A program made the translations under genes and the position numbers. Of a stretch of DNA of 64,000 nt, positions 26,604 to 35,078 are shown piece after piece. Under the pieces are notes generated by a model. The model had not been told where the DNA came from and ran no database searches. It saw only the letters and a program-made list of their open reading frames with translations. The first letter of the stretch is position 1. Each line of letters opens with the position of its first letter. Source of the stretch: Vagococcus fluvialis bH819 (GTDB lineage: Bacteria > Bacillota > Bacilli > Lactobacillales > Vagococcaceae). The stretch is taken from assembly GCF_900163795.1 (NCBI RefSeq), contig NZ_FWFD01000008.1, positions 124,001 through 188,000 on the forward strand, read 5' to 3'.

Positions 26604-26624
26604 ATTATTTAGCTACTGGATAGA
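26604..26624. repeat. attL core, 21 bp
   Basis: Identical to 35058-35078. The bases correspond to the rpmA 3' end read on the minus strand (TATCCAGTAGCTAAATAA). Left of it is host DNA with the old rpmA terminator. Confidence 0.88.
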
Positions 26625-26727
26625 GAAAGTTCTACTTTTAACACGTTTCAACCTACCACAAGAAACGCTATATAATAGTAGGTTTTAATCATAAAGTATT
26701 CAACCAGTCATAATATGTCACATTCAG

Positions 26728-26750
26728 ATGGCATTCAATATGGCATTCAA
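26728..26750 (+). repeat. Integrase arm-type repeats, left end
   Basis: ATGGCATTCAA at 26728-26738 and again at 26740-26750, start to start 12 bases. The same pair with the same spacing and orientation lies at 34965-34987 beside the other att copy. Probable arm-binding sites for the N-terminal domain of the integrase. Confidence 0.75.
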
Positions 26751-26782
26751 AACGCTACGGGCGAGATGGTGAGTTTATATAG

Positions 26783-26810
26783 AAAAAGAGATGAGAGATC
26801 ATCTCTTTTT
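26783..26810. terminator. Terminator after the deaminase-like gene
   Basis: Perfect 12-bp stem AAAAAGAGATGA with TCATCTCTTTTT and a GAGA loop, 30 bases beyond the stop at 26840. It is T-rich in both directions and also insulates the element from the host side. Confidence 0.85.
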
Positions 26811-26839
26811 TCATAATAAATTATACCACTCATAAGCGG

Positions 26840-28135
26840 TCAGTATCTATCTCTATATATAACTATTTTTAATGCTGTTTTATCTAGAGGGCTAGTATCA
26901 ACTTCTTGTCCAGTTCCACTGCATTCTAATAAGGAATCTATGTTACAAATAAAATGTAGATTCTCTTTCATAGTTATACATCTTTTACAAGGTTGAAATT
27001 TAACAAATATATGAGAATCATCATCTTTTATACTAATATTTTCTAACTTCATTGATAGTAATTTTTTTTCACAACATGCAAATAATTTCCCTTTATTACG
27101 TTTATCATCATTTAATAAGATTGCTGCACTATTTGCATTTTCATAATCAGCTAAATTAATGTAATCATTTTCTAAACTACACATATAATAACGAGTCGAC
27201 GTATTTAACTTTACATATTCATACTTATTTATACAATTATCAGTGATTTTTTTAAATATTTTTTCTGCGTCTATTTCCAAATTACGTTTAGCCCCACTAA
27301 TTGATAAGTATGTTTTATCATCATTTTCAATCCTCATAGCCGCAATACATTTTGATTCTAAATTATATTTTAATTTATTTGAATCATTATTTGTTCTAAT
27401 TCTAGATAATTCAGCTACTATCCTTTGAGGTAATGACAAATTATTTCCCGTTATTTCTAAAAGCGACATTTGTTCTTGTAATTCAATTTGATTATTATTA
27501 AAACTCTTGTCCAACTCGATTATCATTTTCTTTACTATTTTTTCATAATGATACTCATCATATGGGAAATTCTTGTTTTTGGCTTGTTGGATGTTTTTAT
27601 CCTCAGAAATTACCATCATAAATGTTTTACTTTTTTTATACCTAATAGTATATTCTTCAGTCTCTATATTAAGTTCTAATTGATTCCCTAATAAATAAAG
27701 ACTTCTAGCAAGCAGATTCATGCGCCATAGCTTTTTTAAAGTTTCATTTTGAAAACCTTTAATTTTATCCATATATTTTTTAATTGTTTTTTTCTCGTAA
27801 AAGAAACTATAATAAATATTAATTTTTTTTAACAGTTCATATCTAGAATTTTCTTCATTAGCGCCAAAAACATCGTTCTTTAATTCATCCCAAATATATT
27901 TCTTTACTAATATAAGATCAGAATATTTCTTATCTAAAATAGAAAAATCACTTTTTTCTCGTTCACTAATTTCTCTTGGCCAACTTTCAGCTAAATAAAA
28001 TGGTACAAAAATATTACCCAAAATATAAAATAGATTGTTTTCTTTAAACTCTTTTTCGTATAAAATAATGCGATCATTTAACTCAGTTTTCAAAATATAT
28101 TTTAACTCTAAGTCTATATCATTATCATTTTCCAT
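26840..28135 (-). CDS. Unknown protein with a C-terminal cytidine-deaminase-like zinc signature
   Basis: I do not recognise the full-length family (431 residues). Residues 1-250 are helical and charged with no known motif. The C-terminal part looks like a CDA-fold deaminase: strand CIAAMRIE (263-270), strand KTYLSISGA (274-282), a helix carrying CCEKKLL with C354 and E356 placed like the Cys/His-x-Glu motif, and strand HIFVKFQPCKRC (375-386) with the PCxxC zinc pair C383/C386. This order matches polymorphic-toxin deaminases (family knowledge). It sits at the cargo end of the element, with an AGAGG Shine-Dalgarno and its own terminator. Role in phage defence or as a toxin is inference; no immunity gene is obvious beside it. 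Confidence 0.7.
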   Translation of the reverse strand: MENDNDIDLELKYILKTELNDRIILYEKEFKENNLFYILGNIFVPFYLAESWPREISEREKSDFSILDKKYSDLILVKKYIWDELKNDVFGANEENSRYELLKKINIYYSFFYEKKTIKKYMDKIKGFQNETLKKLWRMNLLARSLYLLGNQLELNIETEEYTIRYKKSKTFMMVISEDKNIQQAKNKNFPYDEYHYEKIVKKMIIELDKSFNNNQIELQEQMSLLEITGNNLSLPQRIVAELSRIRTNNDSNKLKYNLESKCIAAMRIENDDKTYLSISGAKRNLEIDAEKIFKKITDNCINKYEYVKLNTSTRYYMCSLENDYINLADYENANSAAILLNDDKRNKGKLFACCEKKLLSMKLENISIKDDDSHIFVKFQPCKRCITMKENLHFICNIDSLLECSGTGQEVDTSPLDKTALKIVIYRDRY

Positions 28136-28213
28136 ATTTACCTCTCCCTGTATAACATTTATTAATTAAAATATATCACTTTCCAACACACATTTGATTT
28201 ATTTCTAGTATAC

Positions 28214-28240
28214 CAAAAAAACCCACTAATTAAAGTGAGC
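28214..28240 (-). terminator. Terminator of the element's replication operon
   Basis: On the minus strand CTCACT-TTAAT-AGTGGG followed by seven T. It lies between the 48-residue reading frame and the promoter region of the deaminase-like gene, so the latter is likely transcribed separately. Confidence 0.75.
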
Positions 28241-28249
28241 TTTCAAATG

Positions 28250-28396
28250 CTATCCATTTACTTTACTAGCTAAATCATTAAACGTGAGTGTTTTAACCAT
28301 GCTTAATCCACCAGGGTATCTACCTAAAACGGCTGACTTGTCAGGACTAATATAAGTTTTAAGCTTATTTAATAAGTATTTGACTATCGAGATCAT
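28250..28396 (-). CDS. Small hypothetical protein (48 aa) of the element
   Basis: Reading frame starting ATG at 28396, overlapping the end of the upstream 89-residue gene by 32 bases. The product contains KLKTYISPDKSAVLGRYPGG and ends LTFNDLASKVNG. It looks protein-like and I believe similar peptides occur in phages of Lactobacillales, but I cannot name a family. No clear Shine-Dalgarno is visible, so translation would depend on coupling. Confidence 0.5.
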   Translation of the reverse strand: MISIVKYLLNKLKTYISPDKSAVLGRYPGGLSMVKTLTFNDLASKVNG

Positions 28397-28634
28397 CAAA
28401 TTTAGATATAAAGTCAAGCAGCTTTTGTTTTCGCTGCATTAAACTATCTAATTCAAGCTTTTTTTCTTTAATAATGCCTTCAATTTTCGCACCTTTACTT
28501 TCTTTAGTGATTTTCACTTTAGATAGATCACCACTTACCCAACGCTTTAATTCTGACTCGTAATCATCTATTTCAAATTCTAGGTAATCAATTGCACGTT
28601 GTAACGTTTGGTACTTTGTCAGCCAGTCATACAT
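28365..28634 (-). CDS. Hypothetical coiled-coil protein of the element (89 aa)
   Basis: Unknown function. The start at 28634 is fixed by GGGAGG seven bases upstream (MYDWLTKYQTLQRAIDYLEF); a longer frame exists but lacks a ribosome site. Helical and highly charged, with two heptad-like stretches (residues 8-32 and 50-80). Separated from the upstream xtrA-like gene by a strong hairpin. Confidence 0.75.
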   Translation of the reverse strand: MYDWLTKYQTLQRAIDYLEFEIDDYESELKRWVSGDLSKVKITKESKGAKIEGIIKEKKLELDSLMQRKQKLLDFISKFDDLDSQILIK

Positions 28635-28660
28635 CTTGAAACCTCCCGTGTTATTAAAAA

Positions 28661-28706
28661 GAGAACACAAGCTACTAGCCAAAAATGACTAACAACCTAT
28701 GTCCTC
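28661..28706 (-). terminator. 20-bp wobble-rich hairpin of the element operon
   Basis: In the minus-strand RNA, AGGACAUAGGUUGUUAGUC pairs along its whole length with GGCUAGUAGCUUGUGUUCU around a loop of about six bases, using seven G-U pairs, then a U run. On the plus strand the same positions would be A-C mismatches, so the fold is strand specific. A smaller CACG-AAAG-CGTG hairpin precedes it. Confidence 0.65.
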
Positions 28707-28725
28707 ACGCTTTCGTGTCAGACTA

Positions 28726-28857
28726 TTAAATTTTTTCTGATATGATCGTTTCTTTTCTGATTACCTGACCATCTTGGATAATCAAGCGAACCTCTCCATA
28801 TTTTGGCAGCTCCACTGTTGTGTTTTTTCCTTTTGAATCAATGTAAATTTTATCCAT
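28726..28857 (-). CDS. XtrA/YqaO-like small phage protein (43 aa)
   Basis: Starts MDKIYIDSKGKNTTVELPKY, then GEVRLIIQDGQVIRKE. This fits the small DUF3954/XtrA family of phage and element genes as I remember it; function unknown. It starts 16 bases after the dnaC-like stop with AGGGA upstream, in the same operon. Confidence 0.72.
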   Translation of the reverse strand: MDKIYIDSKGKNTTVELPKYGEVRLIIQDGQVIRKETIISEKI

Positions 28858-28873
28858 TCATTTCCCTACTTTC

Positions 28874-29716
28874 TTATTTTTTTAGAGTATATTCGTACTC
28901 TCGTTTATCAGTAATACCGTTAAAATCCATTAACAATAAATTACTTTTTATCCTTGATACAGTTCTCGCATCTAAGATTAGAGATAATTCATCCAAACTT
29001 AGATTACTTGTAAATATCGTTGTCTTGTTCTCTCTTGCGTTGAGAATATTATAAAGGGTATCTACAGTAAAGTTAGATGCCTGCTTGTTAGAGTTCATTG
29101 ATAGCTCACTACCGATATCATCTAGACCTAGAACGTCCGCTTCTACTAATAAATTTAGATAGTCAGCTGAAGTCTTTTGATCAGTGTACTTTTTATTAAA
29201 CGATTCTTTCATTTCAGATAATAACTTCGGCATCGATACAAACAAACATTTCTTTGAATCACCTAGTTCGTTAATGTTCTTTAACATTCCCATCATTAAA
29301 TGAGTTTTTCCAACTCCTGGAGGACCAACCATAAAGACATTTCTATTATTTTTTAAAACTTCTTTAACCACTGTATGAGTATGTTTTTTGATATCACTCT
29401 CAGTATCATTTTTATTGATATAATCTTTAATGCCTTTATTCAGTAATGATCTATCATGTAGAATACTATTATTTTTCAAAAATAACTTTCTTCCTTCTTT
29501 GGTACTTTCAAATTGTTTTTTAGTTGCTTGAGTTGAAAATTTTTTACTCCGTCGCTCACTCTCACATCTTGGACAAATTATTTCATCGTTAAAGTGCCAT
29601 AAATTGTATTTTTCATGTCCTGGAACATTACACGGTTCTTGAAGCTCAATATATCCAGTACGTTCAATGTGGCTATCTGGTACTTTGACGCTTCCCATTT
29701 CCATTGTTTTACTCAT
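28874..29716 (-). CDS. DnaC/DnaI-like helicase loader ATPase
   Basis: AAA+ protein that loads the replicative helicase on element DNA. An N-terminal zinc-ribbon-like part has C29, then CPRC (48-51). Walker A is GPPGVGKTH (131-139) and Walker B is VLGLDDIGSE (about 195-204). TIFTSNLSLDEL is near residue 245 (sensor 1) and an arginine-rich end follows. 280 residues, typical of phage DnaC-like loaders. GGAGG overlaps the stop codon of the upstream gene. Confidence 0.9.
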   Translation of the reverse strand: MSKTMEMGSVKVPDSHIERTGYIELQEPCNVPGHEKYNLWHFNDEIICPRCESERRSKKFSTQATKKQFESTKEGRKLFLKNNSILHDRSLLNKGIKDYINKNDTESDIKKHTHTVVKEVLKNNRNVFMVGPPGVGKTHLMMGMLKNINELGDSKKCLFVSMPKLLSEMKESFNKKYTDQKTSADYLNLLVEADVLGLDDIGSELSMNSNKQASNFTVDTLYNILNARENKTTIFTSNLSLDELSLILDARTVSRIKSNLLLMDFNGITDKREYEYTLKK

Positions 29717-29728
29717 AACGCAAACCTC

Positions 29729-30612
29729 CTAATAAGGTAATTCTGGTAGTTCTGAATCATCATAACTTGGGACTTTTCTTGCTTCAGCAATATTAGCAGC
29801 CCACTCTGGTGGTATTTCTTCCGTTTGGTTTACCTGGTATTGTTTTCTGTTGTTAGTAGTCACGAATTCGTCCATATAAGAACGTTGGTTAAAGAAAGTG
29901 CTACCTTGCTTTATAAACTGTATTTCAGTTCGCTGTAGCTCGATTTGTTTCTTATAAGCATTAATACCATTTAAAATAGTTTCGTCTGTTGTGCCGTCTC
30001 TGATAGCTTTTTGATAGGACTTAAAGGCATTCTCTTTACCTTGCTTTTTAGGATATTCTTTCCAAATTAAATCAAACCTATTTTTTAAATCGACTTTATC
30101 AACTTCTTTGGAAGATGATTGATCTATATTACTCTTCTCTAACTCTATCTCTTAGTCACATCGATGTTACTTTGTAACTCACTAGCGTTACCTTGTAACT
30201 TTTTCTTTTCTCTATGACGTCTAACTCTTTCTGCGCTATAACTTTCAGAGCCAAGCATTTCAGGTATTCTATTAAGATAATATTCGTCATTTTCCACTAC
30301 TTCAATAAGTTGCTTAGTCTCTAAAAAATTGAGCGTCATGGCTACATTTTCTGGTTCTTCATCAATTAACAAAGATATTTCTTCAGCAAAATCGTCACCT
30401 ATAGATTCAAAATAAAGTTTCCCCTCATCTTTAAGACTTGCTAATAACATTTTTAAGTAAATAACTGTATACGTATCACCACCAGCTATTTTTCTTAACA
30501 ATTTAATTTCTTTCTGATCAAAGAAATCCGTTTTTAATTGCAACCAATAATATCTTTTTGCCTTTGTATCATTTTTGAATTCAGCCAACTTAATATTCCA
30601 CCTACTTACCAA
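29729..30612 (-). pseudogene. Replisome organizer, split by a frameshift
   Basis: Phage-type replication initiator. The first part (30145-30612, 155 residues) has the replisome organizer N-terminal domain (YYWLQLKTDFFDQKEIKLLR) and ends in RVRRHREKKKLQ and VTKR-stop. The next frame continues without a start codon as EIELEKSN, then FDLIWKEYPKKQGKENAFKSYQKA and FIKQGSTFFNQRSYMDEF, ending at 29729. Homologues run through in one frame. One missing base near 30146 (AAGGAG to AAGAG) would explain it. It may be a true mutation or a sequencing error; no slippery sequence is visible. Confidence 0.82.
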
Positions 30613-30626
30613 TTTTATTTATATTT

Positions 30627-30842
30627 TTATATTCCTATCCCAAACTCAGATAGCTCTGTAGCATGCTTAGTCGCTAATAACTTGACTGATGCCAGAAAGC
30701 CGCTTAATGCGTTTATATCTTCGGTTTTTATATCATTAAACAAAAAATTATTGTAAACAAATGAATCTAAACCGTGAATTGCATTCTCTAAGTTATTTGC
30801 ATCGATTGTAATATCATCAATATTTAATGTTTTTTCTTTCAT
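30627..30842 (-). CDS. Hypothetical protein of the element (71 aa)
   Basis: Unknown function. I chose ATG at 30842 with GGGGAAG nearby (MKEKTLNIDDITIDANNLEN); longer frames have no ribosome site. Acidic, probably alpha-helical, ends in SEFGIGI. It lies just before the replisome organizer, where phages often carry small regulators. Confidence 0.65.
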   Translation of the reverse strand: MKEKTLNIDDITIDANNLENAIHGLDSFVYNNFLFNDIKTEDINALSGFLASVKLLATKHATELSEFGIGI

Positions 30843-30878
30843 TTTACTTCCCCATTTCATCATAATTTGTGATAACAT

Positions 30879-30944
30879 GAGGTAAATAGGGATTAAAATC
30901 TATTTACCTCAGCACGCTTAAAGGATTGCAGTCCTAAGTGTGCT
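30879..30944. repeat. Two adjacent inverted repeats
   Basis: GAGGTAAATAG and CTATTTACCTC (11-bp arms, 10-base loop) directly followed by AGCACGCTTA and TAAGTGTGCT with a nested GGAT/GTCC pair. They fill the gap between two small genes ahead of the replication genes. Possible origin, terminator or RNA element; undecided. Confidence 0.6.
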
Positions 30945-30948
30945 ATTT

Positions 30949-31176
30949 TTATTTATCTTCATATCCTAAAATCTCTTGAATCTGTGACACATAACAGGCA
31001 ATAGCTGAACCAGCTAAATTTTTAGCTCTTTCTAATGGCGTTTCATCAATACTTCTTGAACCATCACCATCAATGAGTTTAGCTTTATATACCTTGTTTT
31101 CATCAATAGTAGAAATTTCTTCTAAAATACCAGATAAATCTCTTAACAACTCTCTTACACTTTTTTCTTCATTCAT
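30949..31176 (-). CDS. Hypothetical protein of the element (75 aa)
   Basis: Unknown function. Helical N-terminus (SVRELLRDLSGILEEISTID), then ETPLERAKNLAGSAIACYVS. AGAGGAAA five bases ahead supports the ATG at 31176, which is one base from the stop of the preceding small membrane protein, so the pair is coupled. Confidence 0.7.
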   Translation of the reverse strand: MNEEKSVRELLRDLSGILEEISTIDENKVYKAKLIDGDGSRSIDETPLERAKNLAGSAIACYVSQIQEILGYEDK

Positions 31177-31177
31177 T

Positions 31178-31354
31178 TTAATTTCCTCTTTTCTTTTTTA
31201 ATTGAAATGATGCGATATCTAAATTAAATAAAAACATCATAAACATCGGAATGCCTAAAATAGCTATTAACTTACCGTCTAGGCTTCCTAATATCATTCC
31301 TAGTACAAATACAACTAATAAAACTCCATAACGTCTAACACCGTAAATATTCAT
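31178..31354 (-). CDS. Small membrane protein of the element (58 aa)
   Basis: Starts MNIYGVRRYGVLLVVFVLGM. Two hydrophobic segments (about 9-24 and 29-43) and a basic tail QLKKKRGN. A strong GGAGGAG site is four bases ahead of the ATG. Family unknown; small membrane proteins of this kind are common in the early region of Gram-positive phages. Confidence 0.75.
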   Translation of the reverse strand: MNIYGVRRYGVLLVVFVLGMILGSLDGKLIAILGIPMFMMFLFNLDIASFQLKKKRGN

Positions 31355-31390
31355 GTTTCTCCTCCATCTCGCAAAGCCCGCCCGCTTGCT

Positions 31391-31660
31391 TTATTTTTGG
31401 TGTTCTAACATAAATCGATCTAATTCTGATGTTGCATACCACACTGAACCACCTTCAACAGGTTCTGACCTCTTTAACCCTTGTCTCTCATATCGAATTA
31501 AGGTACCTACGGAAATTCCTTTGTAATAATTGGACACATCCTTCTGTTGTATAAAAGGTGGCTTCTGCACTTGTTGCTCTACTAGTTCAATCATTCGTTG
31601 ATAAGTTTCTTGGTGCTGCTTTAGTAATTCTTGTTCGTACTCAATACTAAAAAAATTCAA
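31391..31660 (-). CDS. Excisionase/AlpA-like helix-turn-helix protein (89 aa)
   Basis: N-terminal coiled segment (YEQELLKQHQETYQRMIELV) and a C-terminal MerR-like winged helix (VSVGTLIRYERQGL-type: ISVGTLIRYERQGLKRSEPV, ending ATSELDRFMLEHQK). Such proteins act as excisionases or activators in integrated elements; that role is inference. The start is TTG at 31660, six bases after AAGGAGGTG. An operator-like repeat (31684-31698) lies just upstream. Confidence 0.75.
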   Translation of the reverse strand: MNFFSIEYEQELLKQHQETYQRMIELVEQQVQKPPFIQQKDVSNYYKGISVGTLIRYERQGLKRSEPVEGGSVWYATSELDRFMLEHQK

Positions 31661-31683
31661 ATCAATCACCTCCTTTTCACAAA

Positions 31684-31698
31684 GAAACATTTCCCAAC
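31684..31698 (+). promoter_or_regulatory. Operator copy 1, GAAACATTTCCCAAC
   Basis: Same 15-base sequence as the copy at 31926. It lies between the Cro-like gene and the excisionase-like gene, so it may let the repressor act on the latter. Confidence 0.6.
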
Positions 31699-31700
31699 TT

Positions 31701-31901
31701 TCACCCAAAAAAAAGAAGGTCAATAGTCACGTTAGAATCTACCTGTTTAAATAATTCTTTTAAAAAAATCTTTTCAGAATCTTTAAATGGCACATTACCT
31801 CTTTCTTTTTCTGAATATGCCTGTCTAGAAATATTCAATTTGTTAGCCATGTCGGATTGTTTTAATTTTAACGCTACTCTATAACCAGCTACTCTATTCA
31901 A
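31701..31901 (-). CDS. Cro-like XRE family regulator (66 aa)
   Basis: Compact helix-turn-helix protein: RVALKLKQSDMANKLNISRQ and AYSEKERGNVPFKDSEKIFL cover the whole domain. It is the first gene leftward from the switch region and so takes the Cro position. Start TTG at 31901, six bases after GGAGGTG; the in-frame GTG further up is part of the ribosome site itself. Confidence 0.82.
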   Translation of the reverse strand: MNRVAGYRVALKLKQSDMANKLNISRQAYSEKERGNVPFKDSEKIFLKELFKQVDSNVTIDLLFFG

Positions 31902-31925
31902 ATTTATCACCTCCTACTACCCAAG

Positions 31926-31940
31926 GAAACATTTCCCAAC
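31926..31940 (+). promoter_or_regulatory. Operator copy 2, GAAACATTTCCCAAC
   Basis: Lies at the expected transcription start of the leftward promoter, mirror-placed relative to copy 3. The core GGAAA-N3-TTCC is palindromic. Confidence 0.65.
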
Positions 31941-31941
31941 C

Positions 31942-31970
31942 TTGACATCATTCTAGCATGACATTATACT
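31942..31970 (+). promoter_or_regulatory. Rightward promoter of the repressor gene
   Basis: Perfect -35 TTGACA (31942-31947), 17-base spacer, -10 TATACT (31965-31970). It drives the CI-like gene at 32011 and overlaps the leftward promoter on the other strand. Confidence 0.85.
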
Positions 31971-31978
31971 GGTGTCAA
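31950..31978 (-). promoter_or_regulatory. Leftward promoter of the early operon
   Basis: Minus strand TTGACA (31973-31978), 17-base spacer, TAGAAT (31950-31955). It shares its spacer with the rightward promoter, so the two should exclude each other. Confidence 0.82.
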
Positions 31979-31993
31979 GAAACATATCCCAAC
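31979..31993 (+). promoter_or_regulatory. Operator copy 3, GAAACATATCCCAAC
   Basis: One mismatch to the other two copies. It begins about 9 bases after the rightward -10, over the transcription start of the repressor gene, suggesting autorepression. Confidence 0.65.
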
Positions 31994-32010
31994 TCAAGGA
32001 GGAATTAATT

Positions 32011-32718
32011 ATGAGCTCTTCTCAAAATAAAGTTGGAGAGAGAATTAAAAATATCAGAATTAGTAAAGGTTTATCTATGGATGATTTTGGGTCTCTTTTT
32101 GATCCACCGGTAACTAAAGGAACAATATCTAAATGGGAAAACGGAAAATATCTTCCTAATAATAACCGAATTAAAAAAATAGCTGAGATAGCTGAGATTT
32201 CTGTTGAAGAATTGCTATATGGAGATATAAGAAATTATCTCAACCCTATCATCATTGAGATAGCAGCAAATCAATACAATATAGATATTAGCGATGATCA
32301 AGAAATGATAGATTATATTTTTGAAGGGTTATACCATGAATCTTATGATAGTGATGAGGAATCACTATATTCTGAGAATAAAGACAGATTGGATGATATA
32401 CTTTTGTATCCTTTCGCTATGGACAGTGAAGGTTTAATACAAACGGCCACTTTAGATTTATTTCATTCAATGAACAAAATAAAAGAGTTAACCGAAAATA
32501 GAAAAGATGATTTATCTAAAAAAGAATATGCAGAATTAACACATACAAAAGACTTAATTACAGAAGTGCTCCAGCAAGCTTATTATGATATTGATGGAAT
32601 GGATGTTGATTCTCATTTCAGCAGTATTGAAAAATATGAAAAAAAACTACAAAAAGAAATAGATAAAAATGCTAATACTGAAATATTAGATCCAAAAATA
32701 CCAAATAATAATAACTAA
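32011..32718 (+). CDS. CI-like XRE family repressor of the element
   Basis: N-terminal helix-turn-helix (VGERIKNIRISKGLSMDDFG, then GTISKWENGKYLPNNNRIKK). The C-terminal 150 residues are acidic and show no S24 peptidase Ser/Lys pair, so induction is probably not by RecA-stimulated self-cleavage (inference). In satellites such repressors are released by a helper-phage protein. AAGGAGG precedes the ATG at 32011; the transcription start near 31977 excludes a longer form. 235 residues. Confidence 0.85.
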   Translation: MSSSQNKVGERIKNIRISKGLSMDDFGSLFDPPVTKGTISKWENGKYLPNNNRIKKIAEIAEISVEELLYGDIRNYLNPIIIEIAANQYNIDISDDQEMIDYIFEGLYHESYDSDEESLYSENKDRLDDILLYPFAMDSEGLIQTATLDLFHSMNKIKELTENRKDDLSKKEYAELTHTKDLITEVLQQAYYDIDGMDVDSHFSSIEKYEKKLQKEIDKNANTEILDPKIPNNNN

Positions 32719-32754
32719 ACTCCCCCCTTACCATCACTTAGAAAGGAGCAAACT

Positions 32755-33732
32755 ATGAGCAATGACATTATTCTATACAGCACAGAGGACGGACAAACAA
32801 AAGTTGAGTTACACTTACAAGATAGCACCGTATGGCTGTCACAATTGGAACTAGCAGAGTTGTTCGATACCTCCAAAAACAATATTAGTCTACATGTTAA
32901 AAACATATTTGAAGATCAAGAATTGGATAAAAATTCAACTGTTAAGGATTACTTAACAGTTCAAAAAGAAGGTAACAGAGACGTTCAACGGACTATCACA
33001 CTCTACAATTTAGATATGATTCTAGCTATTGGCTACCGTGTTCGTTCTGTTAGAGGTGCCCAATTTAGACGATATGCCTCAACTATCTTAAAAGAATATC
33101 TAATAAGTGGCTTTGCCATTAACGATGATAAAGTAACGCAAGAATTAGATTACTTTAAAAAATTACAAAAGCGTATTAGAGATATTAGAACAAACGAAAG
33201 AATATTCTATAAGCAAGTGTTAGATATTTTTGCTACTAGTATTGATTATGATGGTAGTAGTAAAGCTGCAATGGAATTCTTTGCCACTGTTCAGAATAAA
33301 ATGATTTATGCTGTTACAGGACATACTGCACCAGAGCTAATCTTTAATCGTATCGATGCAGATAAAGAAAACTTAGGTTTGACAGTTCAAAAAGGTGATT
33401 ATCCAACTAAAACAGAATTAAAGGTATCAAAAAATTACCTGGATGAAAAAGAACTAACTGATTTAAACCTTATTGTTTCCGCTTATCTTGATACGGCAGA
33501 AAGACAAGCCAACCAAAAAATAAAAATGACCATGAATGACTGGAAAAGTGAACTAGATCGCTACTTAGATTTCCAAAGAGTTGATATTTTACAAGATAAA
33601 GGAAAAATAAGTAGAGATGCAGCTAATAAAAAAGTAGATGATGAGCTAAAGAAATATAAAGCATTAAATAAAGAAGTCAAACAGGTTGATACTGATTACT
33701 TCAACGCATTAAACAAACTCAATAAAAAATAA
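32755..33732 (+). CDS. RhuM family protein
   Basis: 325 residues. The N-terminal region matches the RhuM family (YSTEDGQTKVELHLQDSTVW, then LSQLELAELFDTSKNNISLH and GYRVRSVRGAQFRRYASTIL). The C-terminal half is helical and charged. The family was named as a virulence protein from Salmonella but is widespread on mobile elements with no agreed function. AGAAAGGAGC precedes the ATG. It lies between repressor and integrase, on the same strand, and may be cargo or part of control. Confidence 0.88.
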   Translation: MSNDIILYSTEDGQTKVELHLQDSTVWLSQLELAELFDTSKNNISLHVKNIFEDQELDKNSTVKDYLTVQKEGNRDVQRTITLYNLDMILAIGYRVRSVRGAQFRRYASTILKEYLISGFAINDDKVTQELDYFKKLQKRIRDIRTNERIFYKQVLDIFATSIDYDGSSKAAMEFFATVQNKMIYAVTGHTAPELIFNRIDADKENLGLTVQKGDYPTKTELKVSKNYLDEKELTDLNLIVSAYLDTAERQANQKIKMTMNDWKSELDRYLDFQRVDILQDKGKISRDAANKKVDDELKKYKALNKEVKQVDTDYFNALNKLNKK

Positions 33733-33788
33733 CTAAATCCCCTTACCATCTCGTAAACGCCCGTAGCAAGATAAGGGAGAGAAAACAA

Positions 33789-34961
33789 ATGGCAACATTC
33801 AAGCAATACGATAAAAAAGACGGTTCTAAGGCATGGCAATTCCAAGCTTACTTAGGAGTTAACCCGATAACAAACAAGGCGGTAAAGACAACTAGACGAG
33901 GTTTTAAGACAAAAAAAGAAGCCCAACTAGAACTTAATCGTTTACTAGTGGACTTTGAACAAAACGGATTACAAAAAGAAACTATAACAGCCTTTAAAGA
34001 GATTTGTGAGCTTTGGTTGATAACTTATAAGAAAACAGTTAAAGAGACAACCTACATCACGACAGAGCGTTATATGACCAAGTATGTCTTGCCTTCATTC
34101 GGAGATATTAGAGTGGATAAACTTAACTTAAAAACATGCCAGGTAGAAGTTAATAAGTGGGCTGACAAAACGAAAATGTATAAAATAATCTTGCAGTATG
34201 CTTCTAAAGTAATGGAATATGCGATCAGTTTAGAGTTAGCGGACCGCAATCCATTTAGCAGTGTGATAAGACCAACGCCAAAGAAAGTCATAGAACAAGA
34301 CAAGATAAAGTTCTATACGTTAGACGAATTAAAACAGCTGTTTGAGTTCCTGGAGAACAGAATTAAACAAAATGCTAATGGCCAGCTAATGCAAAAATAC
34401 TTTTCTGAATTGGATCTAATTCTTTTTAGGTTCCTAACCTATTCGGGATTACGTGGAGCTGAAGCAAGCGCCTTAGAATGGCAAGATATTAATTTCATTG
34501 ATAAAACTGTGACAGTCAATAAAAATATGTCTCTTACAAAGAACGGTTTCGTTGTCTCCACACCTAAAACTAAGAGCTCATATAGAACGATCACTTTAGA
34601 TGATAAGACGCTTAGACTGCTTAAAAAATGGCAACTAAGACAAAAAGAAATGCTCTTTGCTAATGGTTTAAGAGATAATAACGTTGTCTTTACTAACTTG
34701 TTTGGTGAACGATTCACTAGACAAGATTTATACCAACGTGCTTCCAGGTTATCAAAAGCTGCTGATCTTCATGTCATTGGCGTTCATGGTTTCAGACATA
34801 CCCACGCATCACTTTTATTGGAGAGTGGTGCCAGCATGAAAGAAGCACAAGTTAGATTAGGTCATAGCAGCATCGAAATGACGATGAATATCTATACCCA
34901 CGTTACAAAAGAAGTCACTGAAAAAACCGTTGAGAAGTTAATGAAATTTGCTAATTTGTAG
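33789..34961 (+). CDS. int: Tyrosine recombinase/integrase
   Basis: Site-specific recombinase that integrates the element at rpmA. AP2-like arm-binding N-terminus (KQYDKKDGSKAWQFQAYLGV), a core-binding SAM-like domain (about 65-160), and a catalytic domain with SGLRGAEASALEW (Arg), HGFRHTHASLLLE (His-x-x-Arg), LGHSSIEMTMNIYTHV (His and Tyr). 390 residues. It faces the attR copy 96 bases away, with two arm repeats directly after its stop. Confidence 0.97.
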   Translation: MATFKQYDKKDGSKAWQFQAYLGVNPITNKAVKTTRRGFKTKKEAQLELNRLLVDFEQNGLQKETITAFKEICELWLITYKKTVKETTYITTERYMTKYVLPSFGDIRVDKLNLKTCQVEVNKWADKTKMYKIILQYASKVMEYAISLELADRNPFSSVIRPTPKKVIEQDKIKFYTLDELKQLFEFLENRIKQNANGQLMQKYFSELDLILFRFLTYSGLRGAEASALEWQDINFIDKTVTVNKNMSLTKNGFVVSTPKTKSSYRTITLDDKTLRLLKKWQLRQKEMLFANGLRDNNVVFTNLFGERFTRQDLYQRASRLSKAADLHVIGVHGFRHTHASLLLESGASMKEAQVRLGHSSIEMTMNIYTHVTKEVTEKTVEKLMKFANL

Positions 34962-34964
34962 TCA

Positions 34965-34987
34965 ATGGCATTCAAAATGGCATTCAA
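34965..34987 (+). repeat. Integrase arm-type repeats, right end
   Basis: ATGGCATTCAA at 34965-34975 and 34977-34987, spaced 12 bases like the left pair. They start three bases after the integrase stop codon. Confidence 0.75.
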
Positions 34988-35010
34988 TTTCAATTCAAGA
35001 CAAAATAAAA

Positions 35011-35045
35011 AAGCCTAAGCCCTTGATAGATAAGGGTTTAGACTT
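35011..35045. terminator. Terminator carried by the element, now serving rpmA and int
   Basis: AAG-CTAA-CCCTT and AAGGG-TTAG-CTT arms; on the minus strand a T-rich tail follows. It lies inside the element, so the element brings a replacement for the displaced host terminator. Confidence 0.75.
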
Positions 35046-35057
35046 ATAATAAAACTA

Positions 35058-35078
35058 ATTATTTAGCTACTGGATAGA
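35058..35078. repeat. attR core, 21 bp, within the rpmA 3' end
   Basis: Identical to 26604-26624 and contains the last codons and stop of rpmA, which therefore keeps its full reading frame after integration. Confidence 0.88.

Follow-up and report, generated by a model that had tools for sequence, protein, structure and literature searches.

A satellite-phage-like element of Vagococcus fluvialis carries a replication initiator gene broken at its own predicted intragenic origin

Does the interrupted replisome organiser gene of Vagococcus fluvialis bH819 encode one protein that a frameshift has split in two, and if so, what would be left of replication in the element that carries it? We addressed this in a window of 64,000 nt, which is the whole stretch of DNA analysed (contig NZ_FWFD01000008.1, positions 124,001 to 188,000); positions below count from its first letter. 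The initial annotation, made from the sequence alone, had read two neighbouring frames as one replisome organizer broken by a single lost base. The features on which our reading rests are collected in Table 1.

Table 1. Features of the split initiator gene and of the element around it, with window positions unless stated otherwise.
Feature	Position	Strand	Evidence or remark
Satellite-like integrated element, 8475 bp with both repeats (~8.45 kb)	26604–35078		End repeats and empty sites
Left 21-bp direct repeat, putative att site	26604–26624		
431-aa ORF, possible cargo	26840–28135	-	No Pfam match above cut-off, none in PADLOC
105-aa ORF, matching part of a phage transcriptional regulator family	28365–28682	-	phrog_36, E 7.6e-11, positions 55–148 of 220
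DnaC-like helicase loader, full-length ORF, 280 aa	28874–29716	-	phrog_50, E 1.4e-53
Frame B, carrying the C-terminal part of the replisome organiser in a shifted frame	29732–30151	-	phrog_270, E 3.7e-25
Short GA-rich tract, predicted origin tract, starting 2 nt past a GTGAC half-site	30132–30152	-	
Frame break, sole stretch between the frame B stop and the frame A stop	30145–30154	-	
Frame A, carrying the N-terminal part of the replisome organiser with Phage_rep_org_N	30145–30612	-	PF09681, E 1.2e-27
Two TTACAANGTAAC iterons, 21 bp apart	30166–30198	-	Contig 154166–154177 and 154187–154198
Excisionase-like HTH ORF, 110 aa	31391–31723	-	phrog_10458, E 5.5e-8; phrog_66 (excisionase/regulator), E 5e-5
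Small HTH ORF, 69 aa, divergent from the repressor	31701–31910	-	phrog_3, E 3.7e-7
Repressor-like HTH protein, 248 aa	31972–32718	+	HTH_3, E 3.6e-10; phrog_3, E 2.6e-15
RhuM-family gene, 325 aa, between repressor and integrase	32755–33732	+	PF13310, E 5.2e-94
Tyrosine integrase, 390 aa	33789–34961	+	PF00589, E 8.3e-29; 98% identical in G005
Right 21-bp direct repeat, putative att site, across the rpmA 3' end	35058–35078		

The upstream part of the gene, frame A, runs on the minus strand from a TTG at 30612 to a TAG at 30147–30145 (155 codons); a second TTG at 30588, from which 147 codons remain, is the likelier start because an AGGTGG-like site stands about 10 nt upstream of it. The Phage_rep_org_N domain in this frame is nearly complete, with profile positions 1–118 of 121 aligned at 96.7 bits against a Pfam cut-off of 23.3. 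Frame B consists of 140 open codons (30151–29732) immediately preceded by a stop, and it matches phrog_270, a 'replication initiation protein' family, over positions 163–290 of 383; its two Pfam matches both lie under the cut-off. Since that stop stands directly before frame B, the two frames are jointly open only over about ten bases, from about 30154 to 30145. No single open frame in the window holds both the N-terminal domain and the C-terminal region, continuity being broken at 30154–30145. The break is present in the window sequence, and the split gene is confirmed.

Comparison with relatives bears out that one protein has been divided. Searched separately, the two halves match the same single open frames in two other genomes of the genus, G007 (302 aa) and G001 (313 aa), and the families matched by frames A and B agree with the naming of the gene as a replisome organizer. 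The C half also matches ORFs in G004 (292 aa) and G005 (288 aa), whose N-terminal parts are unlike that of the window. Alignment to intact homologues, which had been proposed as a check, places the C half in a single open frame of 288–313 aa in all four other genus genomes matched, two of which share the same N-terminal domain (one genome per species was compared). In G013, a distant N-domain match (25% identity) sits in a frame open for 254 aa; one search counted a single stop within that match, and a second search counted no stop. Across the order, PF09681 occurs in 48 of 295 genomes at 57 places, 52 of which have open frames of 251–375 aa; the other five are a frame of 869 aa, one of 224 aa with an internal stop (G223), one of 185 aa (G112, C30), the window gene at 157 aa and a second place in G283 at 97 aa. 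We do not claim the window initiator as the sole broken one among these places. Megablast against the plasmid collection gave no match to the same element. The phage collection gave 11 records, and among the 10 matches listed the aligned pieces cover at most 10% of the 2.6-kb query at 66–74% identity; a pattern scan of IMG/VR yielded one relative of the C half, 52% identical.

We see no route by which the interrupted gene would give a full-length product or a useful C-terminal protein. Within 29729–30650 there are five heptamers of the XXXYYYN type, none of which falls in the frame overlap, in agreement with the initial annotation, and programmed -1 frameshifting was rejected on this ground. 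A separate C-terminal protein from a second start, which had been held open as an alternative, was rejected as well: frame B has no ATG, GTG or TTG before 29875, and a start there would give only 48 aa.

The frameshift could also be a sequencing or assembly error, with the gene intact in the organism, a reading that we regard as unlikely. It would suit a draft assembly in 22 contigs, the intact gene in relatives and the absence of further stops over the 140 codons of frame B. Errors of this kind, however, would have to have arisen where the longest homopolymer (30140–30165) measures 2 nt, and the comparison with G005 speaks for sound sequence around it: of the 45 G005 ORFs (at least 100 aa) that have 70% identity or better to the window, 42 align over at least 95% of their length in a single frame, and the remaining three differ at the ORF start (two) or are cut by the window edge (one), so that no other frameshift appears. 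These 45 ORFs, together with the lack of a slippery heptamer in the overlap, make a real mutation likelier than a sequencing error. Both halves show the marks of constraint, with pN/pS values of 0.13/0.66 (N half) and 0.24/0.63 (C half) against G007 and of 0.13/0.75 and 0.24/0.63 against G001; as synonymous sites are near saturation, these values reflect past constraint and give no age for the break.

Frame A and frame B would be joined by a linker that we predict to be an intragenic origin, and the break falls inside it, at the junction between the iterons and the GA-rich tract, a location that the initial annotation had not noticed. The TTACAANGTAAC motif has 7 matches genome-wide against 5 for the reversed control, so only the pair spaced by 21 bp is noteworthy; no other pair in the genome lies so close. 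The window tract has its usual phase in frame B and a stop phase in frame A, which places the length error either where iterons and tract meet or at the edge of the tract. Between the final full iteron and an anchor common to the relatives the window has 44 nt (remainder 2 modulo 3), compared with 60 nt in G007 and 78 nt in G001 (remainder 0). The initial proposal of a single lost base therefore holds as to the net frame offset, which is -1 (modulo 3), but with segments of 44, 60 and 78 nt no one ancestral base can be named as the one lost. Given that the iterons, the 2-nt spacing and a short tract remain, the origin looks usable in cis.

To characterize the tract in relatives, loci were gathered by N-domain similarity, one search contributing its best 80 out of 448 and another contributing 30. 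HMM analysis then returned 158 rows, with repeats of one locus included, of which 138 were intact, 17 broken and 3 at contig edges; tract statistics refer to intact genes with at most 80% positional identity (n = 55). Codon use in the linkers of these genes departs from that of the rest of the genes, with GAG making up 0.70 versus 0.27 of Glu codons, ATA 0.85 versus 0.30 of Ile, AGA 0.80 versus 0.40 of Arg and TTA 0.61 versus 0.32 of Leu, while Asp is barely shifted (GAT 0.75 versus 0.71). Gene by gene, the linker share of GAG is higher in 46 and lower in 5, and that of ATA is higher in 33 and lower in 1. Hexamers of the form WAGAKW occur 306 times in the 55 linkers, against 84 expected (sd 7, maximum 103) in 200 synonymous redraws from the pooled codon use of the gene remainder. 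The linker tract exceeds what the protein needs: there is a signal at the DNA level, and its letters seem to be conserved for their own sake.

The tract pattern is found in 48 of the 55 genes, and 205 of its 208 matches lie inside the linker; the seven genes that lack it include one of the window gene's two closest intact relatives, L002 (G007). Compared with the rest of the genes, the tract is poorer in GC (0.28 versus 0.37; lower in 42 of 48) and richer in purines on the coding strand (0.81 versus 0.59; higher in all 48). In 23 of the 48 genes exactly 2 nt separate the end of a half-site from the tract, a number to be set against a mean of 1.8 and a maximum of 8 under shifts that keep codon phase; the other 25 have a different spacing or different iterons. 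Codon phase is constant in 197 of the 208 matches, which lends little weight to independence from the reading frame, and frame-independence was set aside as a demonstration that the DNA itself has a role. A tract of this kind could grow by neutral slippage, which in our judgement would not explain a motif and a spacing shared across so many diverged genes. An exact scan of IMG/VR for one version of the tract, by design biased to its own motif, found at least 120 stretches, of which the 80 listed (81 matches) were examined. Among these 80, 68 lie in ORFs with the N domain and five more (L200, L227, L242, L248, L257) have by eye the same linker next to an N domain that is cut off or broken. As for the others among the 80, L202 matches PHROG replication proteins and L254 resembles it by eye, L255 matches a functionally uncharacterized family, two (L181 and L229) have the look of unrelated genes, and in L189 and L214 the longest frame across the tract is on the opposite strand. 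In the literature searched, within which most subscription papers did not fall, we found no description of such a tract.

The initiators of G005 and G004 define a second class, with another N-terminal part (in G005 a match to phrog_6493, DnaD-like helicase loader, at E 1.4e-57), other iterons and a CAGAGACTAC-type tract. A similarity search with the N-terminal part of the G005 initiator supplied 80 loci, from which 36 were picked by hand, those dropped being mostly repeats; 20 of the 36 were non-redundant. In these, GAG accounts for 0.91 of linker Glu codons versus 0.21 elsewhere; CAGAGACTAC is present 18 times, where 0.35 would be expected (at most 3 in 200 redraws); ACA and ACT together make up 0.56 of linker Thr codons versus 0.78 elsewhere, which goes against a simple rule. 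An exact scan for the second tract hit 60 IMG/VR contigs (L320–L379), and in 59 of them the strand and phase of the tract relative to the covering ORF are the same. In these 60 contigs the tract, ACAGAGACTACTACAGAGAC, codes for TETTTET and has varied repeats just upstream; by eye the ORFs are mostly phage initiator-like, and AT-rich as well as GC-rich phages are represented.

The positions of frameshifts could be counted in those broken relatives for which a comparator reached 0.90 identity or more. Twelve events were found, five of them in the tract (L013, L015, L025, L028, L029) and seven outside it, several at homopolymers (L011, L023, L028, L031, L032 and two in L045). L039 and L115 yielded the L025 result again and were counted once together with it; L007, L035, L074, L112 and L162, which have no close comparator, stand outside the count. 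Five of twelve events within about 58 of 768 nt correspond to a binomial P of 0.0012, a value to be read with a tract boundary set post hoc, related copies and some homopolymer events that may be sequencing errors. As a separate observation, many broken PF09681 initiators belong to one related gut group of Lachnospiraceae type (L011, L013, L015, L023, L025, L028, L029, L031, L032), and few to the order of the window.

Taking both classes together, we lean, by a modest degree, towards the following reading. In many initiator genes of Firmicutes phages and satellites the linker would be primarily origin DNA, made up of initiator-specific iterons and then, in many cases after exactly 2 nt, of a conserved purine-rich tract of period 6, (WAGAKW)n, perhaps read as a single strand during origin opening or helicase loading, and the acidic EIEIEK linker would be a by-product. 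Selection on the DNA combined with slippage would then create an indel-prone seam, at which satellite initiators break, the window gene among them. A second class would have a constant CAGAGACTAC-type tract at the same place, and satellites of one genus would swap N domain, iterons and tract while keeping the C domain and the loader.

The broken gene resides in an element at the 3' end of rpmA that is bounded by perfect 21-bp direct repeats. The corresponding empty site, with pepP 121–286 nt past rpmA, is seen in 10 of 14 genus genomes; G000 and G005 have an integrase gene at the rpmA site in place of the empty arrangement, and G006 and G009 have no pepP within the flank fetched after rpmA. 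In G005, the integrase at this site is 98% identical to that of the window, and the initiator has the other N-terminal part. Besides the genes in Table 1, the element contains small ORFs at 28250–28417, 30627–30878 and 31178–31354. The 431-aa ORF was matched, among 100 genomes, only in its own genome and in G005, in the latter case close to another integrase; towards its C-terminal end, a CxxC-like stretch may bear a weak resemblance to deaminases. The RhuM-family gene matches the PADLOC model PDC-S05 (E 6.2e-126) and is a candidate defence gene. Paired ATGGCATTCAA repeats lie within both element ends (26728–26750 and 34965–34987) and are perhaps integrase arm sites. In G005, a major head protein match (phrog_10, E 2e-39; L064, 1694–2821) lies near the element at the same rpmA site, on the initiator side, and if this gene is inside the element, the latter may be a capsid-encoding satellite. 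The elements of G001 and G004 show terminase small subunit matches (phrog_2538) 3' of the loader (L066, 2904–3284, E 1.6e-7; L067, 2664–3074, E 1e-9), and no such match was found in the window element.

Our main reading, to which we assign a probability of about 0.75, is that the initiator of a satellite has been broken at its own predicted intragenic origin, leaving the element unable to start replication alone. The gene would be the replisome organiser, that is, the replication initiator, of an element that resembles satellite phages, measures about 8.45 kb and lies in the rpmA 3' end. An uncompensated length change at the junction of iterons and GA-rich tract, within the origin in the gene's own linker, would have put the C half out of frame, so that the product would be a protein of 147–155 residues containing the N-terminal domain. 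This domain, on the analogy of replisome organisers already known, would bind the iterons, while the C-terminal region, the presumed hand-over part to the helicase loader, would not be made. An initiator of like specificity, if provided in trans, could still use the origin. By the same analogy, loss of self-replication is probably the outcome, with rescue in trans possible. The initial suggestion that the element could be trapped in the chromosome goes too far, since the element retains its integrase, its repressor and the 21-bp repeat at each end, and may be replicated in trans.

Two further explanations give the break a function. The truncated protein might have been kept because it binds the origin iterons without hand-over to the loader and thereby blocks or titrates a helper phage or related element, the cis origin acting as a decoy. 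The nearly complete N domain and the remaining iterons and tract would allow this, and in PMC8965321 the cloned origin regions and organisers of TP901-1 and Tuc2009 are described as conferring phage-encoded resistance in trans; against it, the truncated form shows no sign of selection, being a single copy with frame B undecayed, and the genome has no second PF09681 match, so that we consider interference distinctly improbable. The break might instead be switchable, with tract slippage or translational frameshifting restoring the full protein in part of the population. What speaks for this is the indel-prone look of the tract in other copies, yet those twelve events come from related and partly decayed copies with a boundary chosen after they had been seen, the window tract is short, and the overlap offers neither a slippery heptamer nor a long homopolymer; we find a switch highly implausible.

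On the preferred reading of a satellite initiator broken at its own origin, the pseudogene is ordinary decay of a satellite element and matters mainly for annotation, as the element would probably multiply only with help in trans; what merits following up is the origin tract. If a constant origin tract in coding linkers holds true, origins of phages and satellites could be located from sequence alone, origin specificity could be read as an exchangeable module, and DNA opening by the initiator and hand-over to the helicase loader would become directly testable.

The closest known elements are Javan167 (MK448345), a Streptococcus satellite phage, and the streptococcal satellite prophages with which we group it (PMC6813308). 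Javan167 resembles the window element in size (8.1 kb) and in core gene order, with an integrase and a DNA-binding regulator on one strand and an HTH gene, small genes, a PF09681 initiator and a helicase loader on the other. It differs in having a single 285-aa ORF for its initiator, whose C-terminal domain is a different one (Phg_2220_C), in a Clp-like gene, in the absence of a RhuM gene as annotated and in its host. Gram-positive PICIs, as described in PMC6092414, have divergent regulators with the integrase on the repressor side, an arrangement also seen here, and an excision and replication module on the other strand, of which the window offers a weak excisionase-like match (phrog_66), the initiator and the helicase loader; no primase was found among the element ORFs scanned. 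That source also describes PICIs as free of phage structural and lytic genes, and none was found among the window element ORFs scanned, which were those other than the three small ORFs named above. According to the same text, PICIs measure about 15 kb, compared with 8475 bp here, and their origin lies immediately 3' of the initiator, with two iteron sets around an AT-rich region; the predicted origin of the window lies inside the initiator gene, whose 3' side (29716–29732) leads directly into the loader gene. Induction and packaging by helper phages and an att site never used by prophages are further PICI traits in this text.

The tract itself recalls the DnaA-trio and the DnaD recognition element of the Bacillus subtilis oriC, which in PMC10797057 and PMC10201434 are short repeats beside double-strand sites that are read as single strands. 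The tract found here, though, has a period of 6 instead of 3, is 81% purine on the coding strand and lies in a protein-coding linker; owing to its period we do not call it a trio, and identity with the DnaA-trio was rejected. Origins inside initiator genes have precedents. In SPP1, gp38 binds oriL within gene 38 (PMC6316719), and the gene resembles that of the window in its internal direct repeats and AT-rich unwinding element; SPP1 differs in having a second origin, oriR, and the likeness is one of description, not of sequence. TP901-1 ORF13 and Tuc2009 Rep2009, according to PMC8965321, bind repeats inside their own genes that serve as the origin. Binding and replication have been demonstrated there, whereas the window gene is broken and likened to them by description, not by sequence; like them, it is a replisome organiser gene that holds direct repeats, the two TTACAANGTAAC copies, and with them its predicted origin.
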